A DNA stretch of 38,207 bases from Syntrophomonadaceae bacterium (GTDB taxonomy: Bacteria > Bacillota > Dethiobacteria > DTU022): positions 1 to 38,207 of the forward strand of contig PWYU01000056.1 in assembly GCA_003567725.1 (NCBI GenBank), read 5' to 3'. The position numbers were made by a program, and so were the translations under genes. Shown in pieces: positions 6,141-29,685 of the stretch. How positions within the stretch are numbered: the first letter of the stretch is position 1; each line of letters starts with the position of its first letter. Under the pieces are notes generated by a model, which did no database searches, had not been told where the DNA came from, and worked only from the letters and a program-made list of their open reading frames with translations.

Positions 6141-8027
6141 CTATCGCAGGCTCATGATTTCCTGCAGTGGCTCCCTCAATTCTATAGGAATAGCCGCTAT
6201 TTTTGTATTACGGTCACCAAGCAGCGTTTTGCCAACTATAATCAGGGCTTTACTCCAAAGTTTGCCCGGCGTTGACTGCGGTGCTTTTTGATTCCAGAAG
6301 TATCCATCGCCAGCCATTTTGCCAAATTTGCGGCTTACGGCACTTAAATGGGCCGTCCCCCCTCTTTCCAAGAGATAAAGCAGTAAATCACGTTCTGCCT
6401 GGCTTAATCTTCCCACTAAATCATGCAGGTTTTCAATGACGGTTAAATAAGAAAGAATTTCATACTCTCTTTCCGGACGGAAGCGCTTTGCATCAAGGCC
6501 GAGCACTGCACAAATACTGAGCAGCCATTCATCGGGCATATTATTCAAACCCTGCTTTAAGCCTGCATTGGAGGAAAACTCCTGCGCTTCCACTTCTTCG
6601 CGCAGTTTATCTTCAAAATTTTTTTCTGACAAAGCCTTCTTACTTTTTTTTAATAATGTTTTTGCTTCACGCAGTATCAATTCCGCTTTTTCACGTGTAG
6701 CCGCACTTATCTCATAATGTTCCATGCTGTTTATATATTTGATAGCATCTTTGTAATTACCTGTTTCCAGATTGATTTCGGCCAGGTTAATATCTACTAC
6801 GGAATTACAGGGGAATACAGTATTTAAAGTTTCAAATAGGTTTATAGCCAGCTCCCAGTTCTCATTAGTCCGGTAAAGGTTACCCAAAATCATCATGGCC
6901 CGGGGGTAATAATTGCCTTTTTGGAAATAAGGTTCAAGAACGCTTATGGCTTGATCAACCTTTCCCTGATCTCTTAAAAGAATAGCATCATTACAAACTC
7001 TTTCCATGGCCGGATTATGTTTAAGGTGGGGGTTAGAACAATAGAGAGCGATCATTTCTTTACGCCCGTTGAGTATAATCGGTATTGCGTCGCCTTCTTT
7101 AAACACCCCTCTCTCGGTTAGGGTTGAAGCAACAGTTAACTTAAACTTCTCTGGCAGGTTAGGAGACTGCAGGATCTGGAGACCCAATATTTTGCCCCAG
7201 TCGCAGCCGTAATTTACCAAAAGTTTGAAAGCGTCATCTCTTTGTTTTTCAGGGGCTTTTTCATCAAAAGCAATATCAAGCAAAATAATCCGGATATGGC
7301 CATTTGCAAAAATCTCTTCCTGCTTTTTGCGGTTGATTCCGGATTCATATAAAGATTCTTTTACTTCATCCCAGCTGGGTGGAATATAGTGGAGTTCAAA
7401 GTGGGGTATAACCCGCCTTCCCATCAAAAAGGCAATTCTTTGCAGCGGTACAGTAAAATTACCGATCTTGTTTAAAGGCTCCCAGGTAAAAGCGGCCTCC
7501 TTATAGCGTTTCAGGTTAAAGTAAGCCACGCCGGCTTTATAACGATTTTCCCAGTTAACATGGTATTGCTCGAAGCGACGGTAGAGGTCTAAAACCTGCC
7601 GGTGATCTTTAAGATCGCCTGCCGCCCGCATAATATGCACCGTATATTCATACCATGCCTCAGGATTGATGTTCATTTCCTCCAGGCAGCCCAGACCGTT
7701 TTCAAAAACAATTATAGACCGGTTTAGATATTCCTTTGCCTCTTTCTGTTTGTCTTTAAGGGCCAGGAGCTGCGCGGCAAAAGCATAGCTAAAAGGATTG
7801 CCCTGCGGCGGATTTGAGTTGAGCAGCCCAGCTAAAGCTTCCAAAGCTGCTTCATCTTTACTGCCGGCATGCAAAGCCAAAGCCAAATTATTTAAGGCTA
7901 TTATACTATCTTTCTCATCTGCCTCTTCTACTGCCCGGCGAAAAGTTATTTCCGCCTTTTCATATTTCTGTTCATCCATCATTTCTAAACCTTGATCCAT
8001 CAACCTGGAATATTCTTCGGTGCTCAA
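6141..8027 (-). CDS. Tetratricopeptide-repeat (TPR) protein
   Basis: A 628-residue, mostly helical soluble protein. TPR-like helix pairs lie near the N-terminus (YEKAEITFRRAVEEADEKD; LNNLALALHAGSKDEAALEAL) and again in the middle (NYYPRAMMILGNLYRTNENW; AINLFETL; VVDINLAEINLETGNYKDAI). The C-terminal 130 residues are a separate charged and hydrophobic region with no family I recognise. TPRs normally hold protein partners, and the role is unknown. I chose TTG at 8027 because AAAGGGG lies eight bases ahead of it. The ATGs at 8081 and 8051 have no ribosome site. No signal peptide is present. Confidence 0.75.
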   Translation of the reverse strand: MSTEEYSRLMDQGLEMMDEQKYEKAEITFRRAVEEADEKDSIIALNNLALALHAGSKDEAALEALAGLLNSNPPQGNPFSYAFAAQLLALKDKQKEAKEYLNRSIIVFENGLGCLEEMNINPEAWYEYTVHIMRAAGDLKDHRQVLDLYRRFEQYHVNWENRYKAGVAYFNLKRYKEAAFTWEPLNKIGNFTVPLQRIAFLMGRRVIPHFELHYIPPSWDEVKESLYESGINRKKQEEIFANGHIRIILLDIAFDEKAPEKQRDDAFKLLVNYGCDWGKILGLQILQSPNLPEKFKLTVASTLTERGVFKEGDAIPIILNGRKEMIALYCSNPHLKHNPAMERVCNDAILLRDQGKVDQAISVLEPYFQKGNYYPRAMMILGNLYRTNENWELAINLFETLNTVFPCNSVVDINLAEINLETGNYKDAIKYINSMEHYEISAATREKAELILREAKTLLKKSKKALSEKNFEDKLREEVEAQEFSSNAGLKQGLNNMPDEWLLSICAVLGLDAKRFRPEREYEILSYLTVIENLHDLVGRLSQAERDLLLYLLERGGTAHLSAVSRKFGKMAGDGYFWNQKAPQSTPGKLWSKALIIVGKTLLGDRNTKIAAIPIELREPLQEIMSLR

Positions 8028-8274
8028 CTGCAAACCCCTTTCGCTGATCATTTCTAATATATTGTTTAATAACAAAAACATTGCTTATATCATAAAGCAT
8101 ATTCGATCAATTTGGTAGCATCAAAAGCGGTTTGTTTTTAGCAAAACTTAAACAGCCTGAACTAAAATACTGATGGTCATTAAAACCACGGTAATTGATA
8201 TAGTTTTCTGGCAATGATATAGTATAAACAAGTTAGCATTTGAAGACAAAACCTTTTAGGAGGACATATCTGCA

Positions 8275-8919
8275 TTGAGTGATAATTTTCAGTGTCTCAG
8301 GGAAAACATGGTGAATACCCAGATAAAAGCCCGGGGTGTTAATGATAAAAAAGTCCTCGCAGCTTTTCACCGGGTGCCGCGACACATGTTCGTAGGACCG
8401 GACCAAGAACTCCAGGCCTATGAAGATCATCCCCTGCCGATTGAACATGATCAGACTATTTCACAGCCATTCATTGTCGCCCTTATGACTGAAGCCTTAA
8501 AACTGACAGGAGAAGAAATAGTCTTAGAAATCGGCACCGGCTCAGGCTATCAAACCGCAATATTAGCAGAAATAGCGGGGCATGTTTATACCATTGAGCG
8601 TTTTGAGAAGCTCTCACGCTCCGCATCTATATTGCTTGATAAACTCGGTTATAACAATATTAGCTACAGGGTTGGTGATGGCACTAAAGGATGGCCGGAA
8701 GAGGCTCCCTTCGAAGGTATCCTGGTCGCGGCAGCCACAGCTGATATTCCACCCGCTTTAATGGACCAGCTGGCACCCAACAGCAGGCTGGTCATACCTG
8801 TCGGCGATTCAAGATCCCAGGACCTGCTGATTGTTAGCAAGGATGACCGGGGCAACCTGGATAGAGAAAGCCTTGGCGGCTGCAGATTCCTACCCCTGGT
8901 GGAAGATAAAGAACGCTGA
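8275..8919 (+). CDS. pcm: Protein-L-isoaspartate O-methyltransferase
   Basis: A 214-residue cytosolic enzyme that methylates L-isoaspartyl residues formed by protein ageing, using S-adenosylmethionine, and so starts their repair. The family signature VPRHMFV is followed by DHPLPIEHDQTISQP and the SAM-binding motif VLEIGTGSGYQTAILAEI (about residues 83-100). The fold is complete to the C-terminal RFLPLV segment. The TTG start at 8275 lies 11 bases after a perfect AGGAGG (8258-8263). It is monocistronic and divergent from the TPR gene. Confidence 0.92.
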   Translation: MSDNFQCLRENMVNTQIKARGVNDKKVLAAFHRVPRHMFVGPDQELQAYEDHPLPIEHDQTISQPFIVALMTEALKLTGEEIVLEIGTGSGYQTAILAEIAGHVYTIERFEKLSRSASILLDKLGYNNISYRVGDGTKGWPEEAPFEGILVAAATADIPPALMDQLAPNSRLVIPVGDSRSQDLLIVSKDDRGNLDRESLGGCRFLPLVEDKER

Positions 8920-12352: not shown

Positions 12353-12392
12353 ATAAAAAAAGTGCACCGGAGGTAAAAAAGCGAGAGCCGGT
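12353..12392 (-). terminator. Candidate terminator of the prd operon
   Basis: On the minus strand, just after prdE, ACCGG (12388-12392) can pair with CCGGT (12366-12370). A run of seven T then TATTTT follows. The stem is short and the loop long, so this is a tentative call. Confidence 0.35.
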
Positions 12393-12859
12393 TACAGCTG
12401 CTTTTTTTTAAGCAGCTTCAACATTGCCAGGGCTTTGCGGGCATCCTGGGAATTAATATTATTTTCTCCCAAAACTTCTGTTTCCCGGCCGTCTGCCGAT
12501 TTGTTTATATCAATCACCTTTGACTGGGAGCTGTTCAGGGTTACCGGTTCAGCCTGCACTCCTTCAAAACAAAGCCCTACAGCAGGTATCTTTAAGCTTG
12601 ACAGCTGTTCCAGTAAAAGGTTGAAATCTAGATGACTGTTACCCCAGCTGTCCATGGAAACCAGGACCCCATCAGGCTTTAGAGCGCTCACCCATGTCCC
12701 AAGACGCCGGATAACAAATTCTTTACTTTCATAGTTAGCCGCTATTCCTGCTACAATCACCCCGGCCGGCCGGCAATCGTTATCTTCGCCGAGCAGTTCC
12801 ATAAGAGGGTCTTTGAAATGATGTTTCGTTGTTTCCTTGGTCGATGGCCCTATGCCCAT
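12392..12859 (-). CDS. prdE: Proline reductase cluster protein PrdE (PrdA alpha-part paralogue)
   Basis: A 155-residue protein, last gene of the operon. From its first residue it is collinear with the C-terminal, pyruvoyl-bearing part of PrdA: GIGPSTKETTKHH matches PrdA VGPASKENTRHY, SWGNSHLDFNLLLEQL matches GFGNNHIDFSLHHNQM, and both end in a DARKALAMLK / DAVRAVAMLK helix. The initiator Met stands where PrdA has its cleavage Cys, so no pyruvoyl group can form here. In characterised Clostridium clusters PrdE accompanies the reductase and its role is unclear. Its own GGGAGGG site lies upstream, 88 bases after the prdD stop, so it is a separately translated gene. Confidence 0.8.
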   Translation of the reverse strand: MGIGPSTKETTKHHFKDPLMELLGEDNDCRPAGVIVAGIAANYESKEFVIRRLGTWVSALKPDGVLVSMDSWGNSHLDFNLLLEQLSSLKIPAVGLCFEGVQAEPVTLNSSQSKVIDINKSADGRETEVLGENNINSQDARKALAMLKLLKKKQL

Positions 12860-12947
12860 AATTTATAATCCCTCCCAGTTAATCATCAATCAGGATAGCT
12901 CTTTTTAAACCAGGCTTAAACATACTCCATTGCAGTGCGGAAGCGAT

Positions 12948-13715
12948 TTATGTCAGGGCCCGCAGCGCCCCGTCGCGATATTCGTTTGGGGTCAAAAATA
13001 CTGGCATATTGCCAAGATCGATAATTGAACGGCTGCCTGCTACACCACAAGGTTCTTTGGGCAAAACCAGAAAATCGTGCATTGCGCCCTGGCCGGGCAG
13101 TAACTTTATCAGCAAAACATCTGTTTTACCGGGCTCTAATTGATCTTCATAAACATGCTTTTCTGTATAAGCCTGACTATCCCTGTTTTTTAATTGATCC
13201 CGGATAGTTTGCAGGTAAGAATCCGCTGCCCTGTGAGCAGCCATAATCCCCTGCCGCTTATATACAGCGCCTTCTTTTAAGGTTACCTGGACCAGGATGA
13301 TGCGATCGCTCTTTGCGGGGGTGCCGGCGCGATCAGTAAGCATTTTTTCGCTCAACAAGCCGGCTGAACTGCCGATTTGAGCCGGCGGTTTCCCGCTGGT
13401 ATCGGCCAGGGTTAAAACTGCGCAAACCCCGGTCAGGACATGGGTAATGCCTTCTCCCAGGTTTCCCAGAGCTTTACAGGCAATAGGAATTACATCTAAA
13501 ACAGCGGGAACGTCCTTTTGGAGCTGACCGGGGTTTAAAATGCCAACTTCTATATTGCTAACCAGAGGCTGATCAGAAATGTAACGGGATAAATGCTTTT
13601 CCTGGAGATCTAAAGTGCTGCCTTTAAATGCAGTTTCTTGCGCCAATGTTAATTTTTCGATGTGATAAGCTTTGATCACCAGGCGTTTAGATAAAGCCTC
13701 TGCTTTTAATACCAT
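12948..13715 (-). CDS. prdD: Proline reductase cluster protein PrdD (PrdA beta-part paralogue)
   Basis: A 255-residue protein collinear with the N-terminal, beta-subunit part of PrdA. Shared segments include AYHIEKLTL (PrdA YYPIENIEL), GEGITHVLTGVCAVLT, LPGQGAMHDFLVLP and SRSIIDLGNMPVFLTP. The last residues are RALT followed by TAA, ending at the residue that precedes the cleavage Cys in PrdA (HALT-C). PrdD plus PrdE thus mirror the two processed halves of PrdA. The ATG lies three bases after the prdB stop, with GGAGAGGA ahead, so translation is probably coupled. A scaffold or maturation role for PrdA/PrdB is an inference only. Confidence 0.82.
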   Translation of the reverse strand: MVLKAEALSKRLVIKAYHIEKLTLAQETAFKGSTLDLQEKHLSRYISDQPLVSNIEVGILNPGQLQKDVPAVLDVIPIACKALGNLGEGITHVLTGVCAVLTLADTSGKPPAQIGSSAGLLSEKMLTDRAGTPAKSDRIILVQVTLKEGAVYKRQGIMAAHRAADSYLQTIRDQLKNRDSQAYTEKHVYEDQLEPGKTDVLLIKLLPGQGAMHDFLVLPKEPCGVAGSRSIIDLGNMPVFLTPNEYRDGALRALT

Positions 13716-13718
13716 AGT

Positions 13719-14459
13719 TTAAGATGCTTCCTCTCCTTCAATGTAACGGTAAGGCAGGGCAACAATGCTTACCGGACTGTCAATTACCATTAATTGCCTT
13801 AAAGTATCGCGCAGGACATTTCTTTGCTTTTCATAATTATTTGGTTCACCCAGATTGGCTCCCATAGGCACCAGAGGTGCAACGGCGCGAGGGGTGCCAT
13901 AATGCCGGGCAATAGGGGGAAGAGCAGCTATCAGGATGGTGGGAATCCCTGCAGATTCAATCGCTCTCTGCACAATCACGGCAGAGCGGTGGCAGGTTCC
14001 TCAGCCGGCTGTTAAGACTACGGCGTCGACACCGTCATTTTTCAAGATCTCTACAATCGCCGGTCCGGTTTCCTCTTTTAGCTTGACCTGATCGCCTCCG
14101 CCGCCCATAAAGCCGAAATGGGTGTTTGCAGCTGCATTTATCAGTCCTTCTTCCACCATCTCCTGCAGGCGGTCCAGAGGGAACATGCAGTTAATATCTT
14201 TGTTGGCATCGGCATTGTCATAACCCCCGTGAGTCACCATTAATTCTGAGGTAGGAGTGTCGTTTGGTATTTCACGGAAGGTATGATCACCGGCCAAATT
14301 AAATTTTTTATCCTGCTTACGATGCACACCAGCCGCTGTTACCATGGCTACTGTCATATCCTGCAGGTCTTTTTCTACCTGTACCCAGACCGGTTCCGGT
14401 GACAGAGGAACGTTTATTTCTGATTGCAGGCCTTTAACAATTGTCATTTCAGTCATCAT
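13719..14459 (-). CDS. prdB: D-proline reductase selenoprotein subunit PrdB, with in-frame UGA for selenocysteine
   Basis: Read as one 246-residue protein: 152 codons, UGA (14001-14003), then 93 more codons in the same frame to TAA. The recoded site reads LTAG-U-GTCHRSA, the selenocysteine motif (U-x-x-C) known from clostridial PrdB and like the GrdB site of glycine reductase. With the pyruvoyl group on PrdA it cleaves the proline ring to 5-aminovalerate in the Stickland reaction. The start is ATG (or the next ATG) behind AAGGAGG. Automated callers will split it at the UGA into two false genes. It is flanked by prdA and prdD in operon spacing. Confidence 0.95.
13962..14003 (-). promoter_or_regulatory. 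SECIS-like hairpin after the prdB UGA
   Basis: On the minus strand CGCTCT (13988-13983) pairs with AGAGCG (13967-13962). The stem starts 13 bases after the UGA and the 15-base loop begins with G. Bacterial selenocysteine insertion uses such a hairpin just downstream of the UGA. The structure was found by eye, and no folding energy was computed. Confidence 0.5.
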
Positions 14460-14486: not shown

Positions 14487-16346
14487 TTAAGCCTTTTCCC
14501 CTTTACGGGAAGGCAAGATAGTCTCATTGGGAACGGTTTCGATATCTCTGCCGGTTTGCGACTTGATTAAATCAAGGTTGTTCTCTTTAACATTCCGGTT
14601 ATAAGAACTTTCAGGGGCCTTGATTTCTTCACCGGCCATTACCGCTTTCAACATTGCTACCGCCCTTACCGCATCTTCAGGGCAGAGGGTATTATTGGAC
14701 AGGATTTCGTTTTCAATACCTTCTTCTGATTTGTTCAGCTCAATCATGTTTTTCATGTATTGATTTCCCATGACCAGGGCTCCCTGCACAGCAGAAAAAG
14801 TAAGACCTACTACCGGGATGCCGCGAATGCCCATCTGGTTATGGTGAAGGGAAAAATCAATATGGTTATTGCCAAAGCCTTCAGTTCCGATAAAGACACC
14901 GTCAACATCCATAGCTTCCACCATCATTCCGAGCCTTTCAGAAACAAAATACTTCTCAGAGTTTAAGTGGGGCGATCCGACAAAAACAACGCCTGCCAGA
15001 TCCAGTTCTTCGTCCTTAAGGACTTCTAAAATAAGCGGCTCTCGCCAGTAATGCCTGGTGTTTTCCTTCGAAGCCGGTCCCACGCAGGTTAAAGCGTGCA
15101 CTCCACCGTCAAGCGCTTCCAGGGGATTTAATACCACCGGCAGATTACCAAGGTCGATAATGGAAGTGCTGTCTTCTATCCCTCCGGGTTCGGCAGGTAA
15201 TACAGCATTATCATGCATAGCTCCCTGTCCCATGATTTCTTTTACTACCAGCACCTTCTTTTTATGGGGCCTTCTTTTGTAAATCAGCTCTTCTTCACGG
15301 CCAAACATACTTTCATCAGCATTTTTAAGAGCCTGTCTAATCTCCTGGGTAATATAATCGGTGACTTCATGAGCGGCCACCGGGCCCAGTCTTTCCATGT
15401 TCATTTTAGCCTTGATAACGGCTTCAGTTTTGATAATTATGTCACCTTTATCAGGAGCTCCCGGCCTACCCCACATGATCGTTTCTTCCGGCTGGCCCTC
15501 AGTAGAACCGAACTCGCCGATCTGTACACCTTCAGCATCGGTGCCGGTAACCATAACTACCACTCCATCCAGAGCCCTGGTAATTCCTACTCCAAGCGGA
15601 TTGTTTTCCTCTTTAGTAGCTACCGGCTGAACATCAAGAATGGTCTCGCTGTACTTTTTATAGCTCTCCGGGGCAACCAGATCGAGCTTCAGTGAAACAA
15701 CCAGGTCATTTTGAGCAGCCGCTTCTTCAATAATGCTTTCTCGTATATAAAGGGTCTTATTTTCAATCTTGGTCTCAGGTCCAAGTTCAATGTTTTCGAT
15801 GGGGTAGTATTTACGAATAAGTTTCCGCTCTTCAACAGCTCTTTTTTCTAAAGCTTCGCTCTCCGCTTGAGCGGACTCTTTGCTGATTGCGGGGGCCTGT
15901 TCTCCAACCTGGACCGGATGAGCCTGTACCGCTGCTGTACCTATCGGAATTTCTAAATAAATATCTTCGCCTTTACCTATCTTGATTTTCACACTACCTG
16001 CAGAAGAAGCCACCTGGGGATAAGCGCTCTGAATGGCAGTTTCTTCTTGATCGGTTTGTTCCGGGCTTACTGCCTGGGCCGGCTCCGGTGAAACAACCTG
16101 CTCTTTGACTAAATCAGGGGTCAGGGGAGCAAGAGCGTCAACAGTTTGGTTTAAAGTATTCCCCATAGCCTGTTCGATAGTCAGGCAGTTATCAGGGATA
16201 GTTAGCAAGCCGGAGTCAATCAAGTCTGGCAAAATAGCCGGCTCTTCCAAGCTGGCTGCATCAATTACCGTACCCTGTTCCTTACGGCAGCACAGCACCG
16301 CCGGTTCATCTTTATAGCGTTTTGCATCTTCAGGCGTAATGGACAC
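14487..16346 (-). CDS. prdA: D-proline reductase proprotein PrdA (pyruvoyl subunit precursor)
   Basis: A 619-residue proprotein. Family members are cleaved between Thr and Cys, and the Cys becomes a pyruvoyl group that binds D-proline. The site here is GGVHALT-CVGPASK. With the GTG start at 16346 (protein begins SITPEDAKRYKDEPAVLCCR) the Cys is residue 421, the position reported for Clostridium sticklandii PrdA; this supports the start over GTG 16355. Other features are a PAVLCCR N-terminal region, a Glu/Pro/Ala-rich linker at about 75-165 and the beta-part core at about 175-420. A C-terminal alpha part holds NNHIDFSLHHNQMGIRG. AAAAGG/AGGTAGG lie just upstream. prdC precedes it and prdB follows 27 bases later. 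Confidence 0.95.
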   Translation of the reverse strand: MSITPEDAKRYKDEPAVLCCRKEQGTVIDAASLEEPAILPDLIDSGLLTIPDNCLTIEQAMGNTLNQTVDALAPLTPDLVKEQVVSPEPAQAVSPEQTDQEETAIQSAYPQVASSAGSVKIKIGKGEDIYLEIPIGTAAVQAHPVQVGEQAPAISKESAQAESEALEKRAVEERKLIRKYYPIENIELGPETKIENKTLYIRESIIEEAAAQNDLVVSLKLDLVAPESYKKYSETILDVQPVATKEENNPLGVGITRALDGVVVMVTGTDAEGVQIGEFGSTEGQPEETIMWGRPGAPDKGDIIIKTEAVIKAKMNMERLGPVAAHEVTDYITQEIRQALKNADESMFGREEELIYKRRPHKKKVLVVKEIMGQGAMHDNAVLPAEPGGIEDSTSIIDLGNLPVVLNPLEALDGGVHALTCVGPASKENTRHYWREPLILEVLKDEELDLAGVVFVGSPHLNSEKYFVSERLGMMVEAMDVDGVFIGTEGFGNNHIDFSLHHNQMGIRGIPVVGLTFSAVQGALVMGNQYMKNMIELNKSEEGIENEILSNNTLCPEDAVRAVAMLKAVMAGEEIKAPESSYNRNVKENNLDLIKSQTGRDIETVPNETILPSRKGEKA

Positions 16347-16384
16347 AAACAACACCTACCTTTTCATAATAATCTTCATTCTAT

Positions 16385-17668
16385 CTATTTTGTTTTTCGA
16401 ACCAATCGATTTCCAGCGGCTCTCATTATGTGGTCCGTACTGTGGTAAACCGGAACTCCTACACGAGGAGCTACATCAACGATGGTATTAGTTCATTCGT
16501 CACATGAGCCGGTTAGCAGGGCATCAACTCCTTTTTTCTTGAACTCCATTACCGTTTCTGCCTGGCCCGGGCAAATTCCGGGTTTATTACAGCGAAAACG
16601 TCCGTTAACTTCTTCCATCCTTTTGCATTTTGCGGTAATTATTTCTTCAGCGCCCATTTCCCGGGCAATATCTTGCAGCCTTTCTTCCTGAGCTCCACAT
16701 TCGCAAGCCAGGACCCCCATCTTTTTTCGTCCCCCGGGGAAAGGCATTCCTACCATGATACCGCCCGTGGTTTTTGTGATTGGTGAAGAAAATGTTGCCG
16801 TCTTGCCAGTGAAAGGTCCCCCGATAATTATTTCTCCATGCGGTTCTTCAAATCCACCGGACGCTTCGATAAAATGGCCAATTGGGGTGCCGAGAGGGAC
16901 ATCCATATAAGGTTTGCCTTTGGGGGTGTCCTTGACCCGCCCAGCCACGGTTATATCTTTGTCAATAAAGGGTTTCCGAAGCTCAATTGCTTCAACGATC
17001 CGCTTAATAGTTTCTACATTTTGGATTAACAGCCCGCTTTCCGTGGGCAATTCTCCTGGTGCCAGTTCCAGTCCCACCAGTTCCCGCACAATTACCCTTT
17101 CATCTCCGGCAGGATAGCGATCAGGCAGCAATTTTATCCGGATTCTTTTTTCCTGCGAGCAGAGGTTTAGTAAATCCCGGGCTACCGCTTTGTTTTTTTC
17201 TTTTAAAACAATTAGCGCTATAGGGGCACCGGTCATTTCCTGCAGATATTTCAGACCGCGGATTAAGACATCTGGACGGGTTTGCATAAATTTTATATTA
17301 TGCTGAAGCATAGGCTCGCATTCCGTGCCGTTGGCAATGATTATTTTAGGGTTTTTAAGAGATTTAATCTTCACGGCGGTGGGAAAACCGGCCCCACCTG
17401 CTCCAACAATACCCGCTTCCCTGATTGCTTCAAAATAATCGGAAGGTTCATCAAAAGGTATAAAAGAATTACTTTGCCTTTCTTCCCCCGCGACTACTAT
17501 ACTTTCACCCGTAATATTTTCTACTGTTCCCGATACACTGGCGTGAATATTTGCTCCCAGGACGTTTGGTTCGGCTAAAAGCTGGCCCCTGCTGACCCGG
17601 TCACCGCAAGAAACGACAGCAATAGCCGGAGCTCCCACATGCTGCTGCAGGAGGTAATGTATTTTCAT
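16385..17668 (-). CDS. prdC: Proline reductase electron-transfer selenoprotein PrdC (RnfC-like), with in-frame UGA
   Basis: Read as one 427-residue protein: UGA at 16493-16495, then 35 codons in frame to TAG at 16385-16387. Around the UGA it reads GSCDE-U-TNTIVDVAPR, and YHSTDHIMRAAG lies near the end; the downstream part is protein-like and characteristic of the family. The N-terminal half is RnfC-like, with a biotinyl/lipoyl-like fold region then VGAGGAGFPTAVKIKS and NGTECEP, a flavin/NADH-type site. It probably passes electrons from NADH to PrdA/PrdB at or near the membrane. AAAGGAGG lies 11 bases before the ATG at 17668, favoured over the ATG at 17692. It is the first gene of the operon. 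Confidence 0.93.
16454..16495 (-). promoter_or_regulatory. SECIS-like hairpin after the prdC UGA
   Basis: On the minus strand AGCTCCT (16472-16466) pairs with AGGAGTT (16460-16454) around the five-base loop CGTGT. That is seven pairs including one G-U, beginning 20 bases after the UGA. Position, stem length and a GU-containing loop fit bacterial SECIS elements. No folding was computed. Confidence 0.55.
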
Positions 17669-17729
17669 GATGGTTTTTTCCTCCTTTATCATAATATTAC
17701 AGTTTAGCTTAATCTTCTATAATATTGAT

Positions 17730-19584: not shown

Positions 19585-19986
19585 GTGGCTAAGCTTATGA
19601 AACTGCGCAAATGGGAAGAAAAATGCTACCAGGCCGGGCTGAGCTCCGATTTCCTGGAAAAATATAAAGAACAAGTACAAGAAGCCAAAATAAAAAGGGC
19701 AGTAGTAAAAGAGAACACCTTAAATACCGCCAAGCAAATTGCATGCGCATTAATTAAAAATCAACTGGCAGATAAGGTATATCTCTTTGGTTCATTTGCC
19801 CGCGATGATTACAATGAAAAATCCGACCTCGATCTCTATGTAATTGGGCGCAAAGGTGATACAGGCGAGATCTATAAGATAGCTGAACGATTATGTCGGG
19901 ATCGAAGGGTCAGCATGGTATTTGAGGAAGACAATGTGCCCTGGATAGAGGAAATTATCAACAGGGAAGGGATAGATTTATGTTAA
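19585..19986 (+). CDS. mntA: MntA-type minimal nucleotidyltransferase (antitoxin of a HepT/MntA pair)
   Basis: A 133-residue protein with an extra N-terminal helical extension (about 1-45) ahead of the nucleotidyltransferase core. The family motif GSx10DxD is exact: GSFARDDYNEKSDLDLY, Gly69-Ser70 and Asp81/Asp83. In characterised type VII pairs MntA AMPylates HepT near its active site and so neutralises it. The GTG at 19585 or the ATG four codons on could start it. The last seven bases overlap the start of the partner gene, which ties the two together by translational coupling. Confidence 0.82.
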   Translation: MAKLMKLRKWEEKCYQAGLSSDFLEKYKEQVQEAKIKRAVVKENTLNTAKQIACALIKNQLADKVYLFGSFARDDYNEKSDLDLYVIGRKGDTGEIYKIAERLCRDRRVSMVFEEDNVPWIEEIINREGIDLC

Positions 19987-20528
19987 TCGATAGGAATAAA
20001 TATTTAGTCGTTAAAACGGCAATCGAAAACGATCTAGAAGCTTTAAATCAACTGGCCGGGGAGCTTTCTCAGCTTGGGCTTTATCCTGATATAACAGCCA
20101 GCAGGATTGGCGGATTTGAGAAAGACAGCAGTTTTGCTTGCCGCCTCGTTGGTACTTATTTGTCAGATTACTACGAAGGCATAGAAAACATAGCCAAGCG
20201 AATCGCAAAAGAAATTGATGGCCATATTTCTACTGGTGACGAATGGCATAAAGAATTAATTGATCAAGTATCCAGGGAACTGCCAGGGAAAAGACCGTCA
20301 GTTTTTTCAGAACAAACCTACGAATTATTAGATGAACTAAGAAGGTTTCGCCATGTCTTTCAAGCAAAATATGGCTTTCGGCTAAACCCCGGCAAAATAT
20401 ATAGGAACATATCCAAGTTAAAAGAATTACATCAGCTAATGGAAATAGACATAAATAGTTTCTTGCACAAAATGGAGGCATTGGTGAGTATTGATGATTT
20501 GAATGACTCATCCGACAAGGTTAATTAA
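19980..20528 (+). CDS. HepT-like protein (RNase-toxin family) with an altered catalytic motif
   Basis: A 182-residue all-helical protein whose fold, size class and pairing with MntA point to the HepT-like (HEPN) family. HEPN RNases use an Rx4-6HxY motif. The matching segment here is LRRFRHVFQAKYGF, that is R124-x4-Ala129-x-Tyr131, so the catalytic His appears to be Ala. The downstream RLNPGKIYRNISKL region fits the same subfamily. If the alignment holds it may be RNase-inactive or a diverged member. It overlaps mntA by seven bases. The family call is from pattern and context. Confidence 0.7.
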   Translation: MLIDRNKYLVVKTAIENDLEALNQLAGELSQLGLYPDITASRIGGFEKDSSFACRLVGTYLSDYYEGIENIAKRIAKEIDGHISTGDEWHKELIDQVSRELPGKRPSVFSEQTYELLDELRRFRHVFQAKYGFRLNPGKIYRNISKLKELHQLMEIDINSFLHKMEALVSIDDLNDSSDKVN

Positions 20529-28140: not shown

Positions 28141-28174
28141 CTTAAGGGGGCTGCCTCCTTAAGGGGACTGCCTC
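28141..28174 (-). repeat. 17-bp tandem duplication at the end of a lipoprotein paralogue
   Basis: Two adjacent copies of CTTAAGGGG(G/A)CTGCCTC, differing at one base. Seventeen is not a multiple of three, so the duplication shifts the frame of the minus-strand gene at its last codons. Confidence 0.9.
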
Positions 28175-28819
28175 ATTGATAACTTCGTTCGGCACTTCTA
28201 TGCTCTCAAAGGTATCAAACTCAACATAGGTAATTTTTATTTCTTGTCGCATATCTATGATTTCACCCATCATTTCCATTGCCCGGTTATAAGTAATTTC
28301 ACTTTCTACCGGTAAAAAACTTTGTGTATCAATTTTAACTGTGTAAATTAATTCTGAGAATTCTATCTCACCTAGCATATCTTCAAGATCCGCTTCTTCA
28401 ATTTCAGAAACCCCAAACAATTCTGTTCCAAGTTGTGCTTCAGCTTCTTCTTTGAGCAAAGTAGCAAGATCTCCAGTTACATCTTCATAAATTAAACTAT
28501 AGTAATCATCGTCTGCTTCCATGGTTACATGTTCCGGATTTACATTCTTAATCAGATCAATAAATTCAAAAGGATCTTCATAAGACTCGGCAAACATTAC
28601 TTCTTCAGTTATGTCTTCCCAAACCCAACCAAATTCCGGGATTTCAATATAAAGGAGATTATCTGAAAGGTACATTTTCATATCAAATTTCATTCCTGCA
28701 GTTTCCATTTCAACTTGATGTTCCGCCATCATCGGATCCTCAATCGCCCGGCCGGTAGCCTTAGCTGACGTCGAAAAACTATCCATCCCATCCATGCTCA
28801 AGTCCAGGAGCATTTCCAT
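28142..28819 (-). pseudogene. Truncated paralogue of the adjacent lipoprotein
   Basis: A 225-codon frame aligning with residues from about 50 onward of the next gene upstream: KATGRAIEDPMMAE / NVSGKAIEDPMAAE, KFDMKMYLSDNLLYIEIPE / KMDMKMYLADNLIYINIPE and LFGVSEIEEADLEDML / LFGASAADDPEMQEIL. The signal peptide, lipobox and first helix are missing, and a TGA lies just upstream in frame. The C-terminus ends RRQPP; deleting one copy of the 17-bp duplication would restore EAVPLRDLF-stop, matching EAIPFKELF-stop of the intact copy. Both ends are damaged, so it is probably a dead tandem duplicate. Confidence 0.7.
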
Positions 28820-28866
28820 TGAAAATAATCAGGATCAAGATAGATATTTGAAACTAAGGTTGTGCC

Positions 28867-29685
28867 TTAGAATAATTCCTTAAAAGGTATTGCCTCATCA
28901 ATTACCTCATCTGGCACTTCGATGCTGTCAATGGTATTAAACTCAATATAACCTATGTTAATTTCCTGTTCCATACTGATAATTTCATCCATCATTTCCA
29001 TGGTTATTTGATAGGCAATAGTATTCTCCAGAGGTAAAAAAGTACCATCTTCGATAGTTATAGTATAAACTAAATCAGAGAATTCAATCCCGCTTAAAAT
29101 TTCCTGCATTTCTGGATCATCTGCTGCAGAGGCACCGAACAGGTCTGTTTCTAGCTGGGCTTCAGCAGTTTCTTTAAGTATATTAGCCAGCTCCCCAGCA
29201 TCATCTGTGTAACTCAATAAATAGTTATCATCTGCTTCACCTAAAGTAACACTTTCCGGATCAATAAATTCCAGCAAACCTATAAACTCAAAGGGGTCTT
29301 CAAAAGTTTCAAGGAGAGGGATATCTTCGCTAATATCCTCCCAAACCCAGCCTATTTCAGGAATGTTTATGTAAATTAAGTTGTCAGCAAGATACATCTT
29401 CATATCCATTTTCTGTCCCGCTGTTTCTATTTCCATATCAAATTCTGCTGCCATAGGATCTTCTATCGCTTTTCCGGAAACATTAACTTTTGTGCTAAAA
29501 TTGCCCATTTCACCCATATCAATATCCTGGACTATTTCCATTTCAAACACTGTAGCATTAATATCTTCCGAAGCTTTAATAGTTTCCATCAAAATTTCTT
29601 CAGCTGATAAATCATCTTCTTCACATCCAACACCAATAAGTAAAAGCAGACCCATTAATATCCATACCATTAATTTTAATTTCAT
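28867..29685 (-). CDS. Lipoprotein of the DUF6612/LolA-like type
   Basis: A 272-residue lipoprotein with signal peptide residues 1-20 and lipobox IGVGC (Cys21). The acidic mature part carries the plan of LolA/LppX-like beta sheets: ILMETIKASEDINATVFEME, then strand-rich KMDMKMYLADNLIYINIPE and GWVWEDISEDI, and further strands to the C-terminus. The resemblance to DUF6612 lipoproteins is by pattern; these are anchored on the outer face of the membrane and may bind lipid or hydrophobic ligands. GGAGGT lies close upstream of the ATG. A truncated copy follows downstream. Confidence 0.7.
   Translation of the reverse strand: MKLKLMVWILMGLLLLIGVGCEEDDLSAEEILMETIKASEDINATVFEMEIVQDIDMGEMGNFSTKVNVSGKAIEDPMAAEFDMEIETAGQKMDMKMYLADNLIYINIPEIGWVWEDISEDIPLLETFEDPFEFIGLLEFIDPESVTLGEADDNYLLSYTDDAGELANILKETAEAQLETDLFGASAADDPEMQEILSGIEFSDLVYTITIEDGTFLPLENTIAYQITMEMMDEIISMEQEINIGYIEFNTIDSIEVPDEVIDEAIPFKELF

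Follow-up and report, generated by a model that had tools for sequence, protein, structure and literature searches.

PrdD and PrdE of proline reductase gene clusters resemble a PrdA paralogue split at the self-cleavage bond

PrdD and PrdE, two proteins encoded beside D-proline reductase, together correspond to a paralogue of the reductase proprotein PrdA that is divided into two genes exactly at the bond at which PrdA cuts itself, and in which glycine takes the place of the pyruvoyl-forming cysteine. Proline reductase is a preferred means by which C. difficile and other Stickland fermenters regenerate NAD+. The pair was analysed in the window (that is, the whole stretch of 38,207 nucleotides of contig PWYU01000056.1), which belongs to a genome whose closest relatives are Syntrophomonadaceae MAGs, and was compared with loci from other genomes. 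A preliminary description of this DNA had already remarked on the split at the cleavage site; that observation is real and stronger than first stated, the positions, reading frames and residues given there for PrdD, PrdE and PrdA are correct (Table 1), and the interpretation of PrdD/PrdE as a whole is partly supported.

Table 1 Features of the prd cluster in the window
Feature	Position (strand)	Description
prd cluster	(-)	Order prdC, prdA, prdB, prdD, prdE
prdC	16385..17692 (-), TGA read through	RnfC-like electron-transfer protein; TGA (probable Sec400) 16493-16495
prdA	14487..16355 (-)	D-proline reductase proprotein; 622 aa when started at the first GTG; a second GTG lies at 16346
PrdA scissile bond	15084..15089 (-)	Thr423 15087-15089; pyruvoyl-forming Cys424 15084-15086
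prdB	13719..14459 (-)	Selenoprotein subunit; in-frame TGA (Sec153) 14001-14003
prdD	12948..13715 (-)	255 aa; paralogue of PrdA residues ~172-423, that is, the beta chain without the N-terminal domain
prdD end	12948..12953 (-)	Last sense codon Thr255 12951-12953; stop TAA 12948-12950
prdD stop-prdE start gap	12860..12947 (-)	88 nt, out of frame; ribosome-binding site GGGAGGG 12870-12876
prdE	12392..12859 (-)	155 aa; paralogue of PrdA residues 424-~572, that is, the alpha chain
prdE 5' end	12854..12859 (-)	ATG start 12857-12859; Gly2 codon 12854-12856, aligned with the PrdA Cys

In profile searches, the window PrdA matches TIGR04480 at 842 bits, above the curated cut-off, and PrdB matches TIGR04483 at 377.6 bits with its TGA read through. 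The cysteine of PrdA is residue 424 when counted from the first GTG and residue 421 when counted from the second; the ribosome-binding site is better placed for the second GTG, and either numbering can be defended. The listed prdC open reading frame (399 amino acids) stops at a TGA beyond which a conserved in-frame TNTIVDVAPRVGVPVYHSTDH tail continues, relatives have TGA or Cys at that position, and prdC probably encodes a selenoprotein. PrdF (proline racemase) is absent from beside the window prd cluster and a CBO2463-type protein was undetected there; two tandem proline-racemase-family genes are present on another contig (G000:C31:18398-20409). Elsewhere in the window, adjoining nucleotidyltransferase (MNT)-like and HEPN-type genes, recognized by reading the sequence by eye (19585-20528, plus strand), are a likely toxin-antitoxin pair, and two similar lipoprotein-like genes lying side by side (28142-29685, minus strand) are apparently a tandem duplication.

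PrdD spans positions 2-246 of the 246 of TIGR04482 at 295.7 bits, which is below the curated PrdD cut-off of 320 bits; the PrdD proteins of the nearest genomes likewise score under this cut-off, and the window PrdD sits in a fast-evolving Syntrophomonadaceae branch. Its placement is that of PrdD, with the gene adjoining prdA/prdB and the C terminus at the PrdA cleavage position. PrdE matches no model of its own in NCBIfam and is a stand-alone homologue of the PrdA alpha chain encoded immediately 3' of prdD. On the PrdA profile (TIGR04480), PrdD covers positions 165-413 and PrdE residues 3-148 cover positions 415-560 (E-values of 5e-69 and 3e-34, respectively), so that position 414, the cysteine, corresponds to PrdE residue 2 and the split coincides with the PrdA cleavage position. 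The proposed equivalence of PrdD and PrdE to the beta and alpha chains of processed PrdA holds residue for residue, with the restriction that PrdD represents the C-terminal core of beta only and is without the ~165-residue N-terminal domain of PrdA.

The alignment gives the same boundary as the profile. In the window, PrdA reads DGGVHALT-C424-VGPASKE, PrdD ends DGALRALT-stop and PrdE starts MGIGPSTKE; when these are anchored on GP, the last Thr of PrdD falls on the Thr423 column, Gly2 of PrdE on the Cys424 column and Met1 one position before it. The PrdA rows listed have ALT-C or AMT-C here, and the detection by mass spectrometry of the C. difficile PrdA pyruvoyl peptide (amino acids 421-427; PMC9908766) indicates that the aligned Thr-Cys bond is the real cleavage bond. 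To extend the comparison, we gathered 42 loci that encode PrdD/PrdE, taken from GTDB contigs, plasmids and whole genomes; they represent Clostridia, Syntrophomonadaceae and Bacilli, the last with plasmids of Enterococcus and Ligilactobacillus among them, as well as a separate group, f44. The preliminary description had predicted the same split residue across genomes, and this is what the multi-genome alignment gives: 40 of the 41 intact PrdD genes stop one residue short of the Cys column (L010 has one residue more), and the invariant D-G is followed by six residues in 40 of the 41 and by seven in one. The opposite ends of both proteins drift: PrdE C-terminal tails range over at least 14-21 residues among the 32 measured rows, and PrdD N termini differ too, the figures for the latter being rough, as they are based on the first ATG. 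With a shared core of ~400 residues, a random cut would have a chance of about 1 in 400 of falling on the cleavage bond; the split here, with its end conserved across distant lineages, goes beyond chance.

The stop and new start said to replace self-cleavage are present throughout. Across the 42 loci the distance from the prdD stop to the prdE start varies from 8 to 296 nt and falls in all three frames, mostly with a ribosome-binding site, so that the split is a real one into two genes that yield two separate chains. The PrdE start codon immediately precedes the glycine in every locus (39 ATG, 2 GTG and 1 TTG), and in 32 of the 42 it is the sole in-frame start of the open frame; in the remaining 10 a slightly longer PrdE is possible, since a further in-frame start lies a few or more residues upstream. 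The PrdD of L052 (G862) has an internal in-frame stop, yet its C-terminal end is unchanged, and the PrdE of L042 (G894) has a broken frame; either decay or assembly error may account for these two. A second, orphan PrdD/PrdE pair (L019, G333, 7299-8553) lies between pullulanase-like and trp genes, with PrdA, PrdB and PrdC all absent within the 15-kb stretch; its PrdE starts with TTG and reads MGLGTSLKE, and here too the split is exact to the residue.

At the Cys column, cysteine is found in all 46 PrdA and glycine in all 42 PrdE sequences. The preliminary description had Met1 of PrdE replacing the cysteine and concluded that no pyruvoyl group forms; the substitution itself falls, as Gly2 aligns with the Cys and Met1 with Thr(-1), and the conclusion is supported in that no Cys-derived pyruvoyl can form in PrdD/PrdE. 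Initiator methionine is removed if the second residue is Gly, and likewise if it is Ala, Ser, Thr, Val, Cys or Pro (PMC4692089, which reviews mostly eukaryotic proteins), and mature PrdE therefore probably starts with a glycine exactly where mature PrdA-alpha has its pyruvoyl group. Of the 64 beta columns that are near-invariant in PrdA, PrdD retains 36 (each in at least 90% of its sequences) and has lost 2; among 59 alpha columns, PrdE has kept 19 and lost 14. Several of the lost alpha columns have become fixed, or nearly so, for another residue in PrdE (C424G, A428S, Y436H and R564K), and PrdA-invariant residues are kept round the site (QGAM, EP, DG, GP, KE and H435). The retained columns and the PrdE-specific residues point to constraint of their own rather than decay. 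PrdD/PrdE are thus separate chains with Gly in place of Cys, not a PrdA-type pyruvoyl enzyme (that is, one proprotein with Cys at the cleavage position), and as paralogues of an active enzyme without its catalytic residue they are candidate pseudoenzymes.

The predicted folds agree at the level of secondary structure. AlphaFold2 models the PrdA core at pLDDT 90.8 and pTM 0.92, and a PrdD-stop-PrdE chain (the read-through of L007, in which the frames are in phase) at pLDDT 74 and pTM 0.78, a moderate confidence that becomes poor near the junction; sequence rows from plasmid records were left out of the input. The order of elements is identical in the two models, and the three-state secondary structure agrees at 90% of 409 aligned residues at 38% identity; this comparison and the profile E-values both assign PrdD-PrdE to the PrdA-core fold. 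In the PrdA model, the cysteine lies in a less certain loop directly beyond a short strand. Neither model matched a fold in the PDB at E <= 0.001, and sequence search found no relatives of solved structure.

Unrooted trees place all PrdA sequences on one side (support of 100/99 for alpha and 91/82 for beta), and rooting with a GrdE-type outgroup yields one clade of PrdD/PrdE (87/75) and another of PrdA (97/74). We favour a single ancient prdA duplication, after which the copy was split precisely at the self-cleavage bond and lost the Cys that forms the cofactor; given the moderate support and the very long outgroup branch, one ancient fission is favoured rather than proven. Independent fissions in each lineage were also considered, as the PrdD/PrdE of f44 fall near the PrdA side, but the GrdE-rooted trees favour the single clade. 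The genes prdD and prdE adjoin in every locus recovered, are retained on plasmid-borne prd clusters and are absent together: of seven genomes with PrdA and without PrdD, none has PrdE. These seven, together with a second C. botulinum set that has PrdA without PrdD/PrdE (PMC3091704), indicate that some proline reductases do not need the pair. By distances, PrdD and PrdE evolve ~1.8-1.9 times faster than PrdA. Their distances covary when PrdA is controlled for (partial r of 0.42; 0 of 5000 permutations), which is suggestive only, since permutation also breaks the phylogeny. For a prozyme-like complex with the active enzyme, the joint occurrence and the covariation of PrdD with PrdE would speak only indirectly.

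Several PrdA-like proteins occur without PrdD/PrdE, three of them in one genome (L024, L025 and L026 of G102) and others at L030 and L033. Those at L026, L030 and L033 are 553-565 amino acids long, without the N-terminal domain and extended at the C terminus, and have no PrdC nearby; they are perhaps reductases for another substrate. At L029 (G295), in a genome that has PrdA without PrdD/PrdE, the active-site position of PrdB is Cys, not Sec.

As to function, we lean, with slightly more conviction than doubt, towards PrdD-PrdE as a pre-cleaved, pyruvoyl-free pseudo-PrdA subunit of the reductase. In such a scenario, the initiator Met would come off PrdE, PrdD and PrdE would assemble into a PrdA-shaped alpha/beta unit that is 'mature' from the outset, and this unit would sit next to PrdA and the selenoprotein PrdB in a PrdA-like position, where it may stabilize, assemble or activate the PrdA-PrdB complex. 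As the closest mechanistic precedent we propose the prozyme of T. brucei, an uncleaved dead paralogue that activates the pyruvoyl enzyme AdoMetDC ~1000-fold (PMC5201418). With Gly in place of the pyruvoyl group, PrdD-PrdE would be unable to bind D-proline as a pyruvoyl Schiff base. Purified C. sticklandii proline reductase reportedly has subunits of three sizes (about 45, 26 and 23 kDa), and such a three-subunit enzyme would argue against PrdD/PrdE as stable subunits in stoichiometric amounts.

A purified enzyme without PrdD/PrdE would suit the chief rival, which we hold to be possible but rather unlikely: a transient maturation factor, that is, a mature-shaped template or chaperone that is not kept in the enzyme and either docks on unprocessed PrdA (for folding, self-cleavage or pyruvoyl formation) or shields the PrdB selenocysteine until PrdA arrives. 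Anatomy and co-inheritance speak for this factor as they do for a pseudo-subunit, and an indirect protein-stabilizing role was suggested by Fonknechten et al. by analogy with the GrdE products of glycine reductase (PMC3091704), which are reported to stabilize the selenoprotein GrdB (cited in PMC3091704). However, PrdA in lineages without PrdD/PrdE keeps the Cys motif and presumably matures.

We consider it improbable that PrdD-PrdE acts as an independent enzyme, with proline or another ligand bound in a PrdA-like pocket and with the N-terminal Gly amine, or a modified form of it, contributing to chemistry or sensing. The invariance of the glycine, although six other residues would allow Met removal, the retained PrdA-invariant residues round the site and the orphan pair with no PrdA or PrdB nearby would fit such an enzyme. 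Yet the PrdE residues next to the glycine are nearly invariant as well, so that the glycine alone is not special, and a hydrazine-probe study of C. difficile caught the pyruvoyl groups of PrdA and GrdE, with a main text that is silent on PrdD/PrdE (PMC9908766). That the invariant glycine is itself functional, its amine or a derived carbonyl binding or sensing a ligand, is a quite improbable proposal; if true, it would make PrdD-PrdE a sensor or second active site derived from proline reductase and not a passive scaffold.

Still harder to credit is a non-adaptive relic of an old fission with a merely inherited boundary: the faster evolution, the two broken copies and the lineages without the pair are compatible with it, but the termini are residue-exact over deep divergence while the opposite ends drift, PrdE has fixed residues of its own, plasmid-borne clusters retain the genes and prdD/prdE are induced together with prdA in C. 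difficile. A single fused paralogue disguised by sequencing error, mis-annotation or programmed read-through is scarcely conceivable: that the frames are in phase in about half of the loci would fit it, but the variable gaps in all frames, with an equally placed stop everywhere and a usual ribosome-binding site, refute it.

That PrdD/PrdE resemble PrdA was known, as the preliminary description recognized: Fonknechten et al. (2010) identified them with the middle and C-terminal parts of PrdA and suggested a stabilizing role (PMC3091704). Their statement that the pair accompanies every proline reductase is qualified by the seven genomes with PrdA alone, and what is added here is the residue-exact boundary, the invariant glycine and the single origin. 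No statement of the boundary, of the glycine or of the single origin was found in the open papers searched; subscription papers lay outside this search, and priority is not judged. The pseudo-subunit model turns the known resemblance into a precise, testable proposal, in which a dead paralogue split at the self-cut bond is fixed in the post-cleavage state and the mature PrdE N terminus is predicted exactly, as Gly. In this model, gene fission would have reproduced a step of self-processing, and bacteria would have an equivalent of the prozyme-type control of a pyruvoyl enzyme.

Among known systems, the clostridial PrdD/PrdE (TIGR04482) share with the window the genes, the order prdA-prdB-prdD-prdE and the homology to PrdA; the window PrdD differs in its sub-cut-off score and fast-evolving branch. 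PrdA itself (TIGR04480) shares the fold, the order of elements, many invariant residues and the boundary at the cleavage bond, but it has the Cys and the N-terminal domain and self-cleaves, whereas PrdD/PrdE are born split and are without both. GrdE/GrdG of glycine, sarcosine and betaine reductase (PF09338) are remote PrdA homologues with Cys in the same column and, unlike PrdD/PrdE, each is one proprotein that undergoes cleavage and forms a pyruvoyl group. The trypanosomatid AdoMetDC prozyme (PMC5201418) is, like PrdD/PrdE, a dead paralogue of a pyruvoyl enzyme, unable to make the cofactor, and we propose an analogy of role; it belongs, however, to an unrelated family and remains one uncleaved chain, in contrast to PrdD/PrdE, which resemble the enzyme after cleavage.
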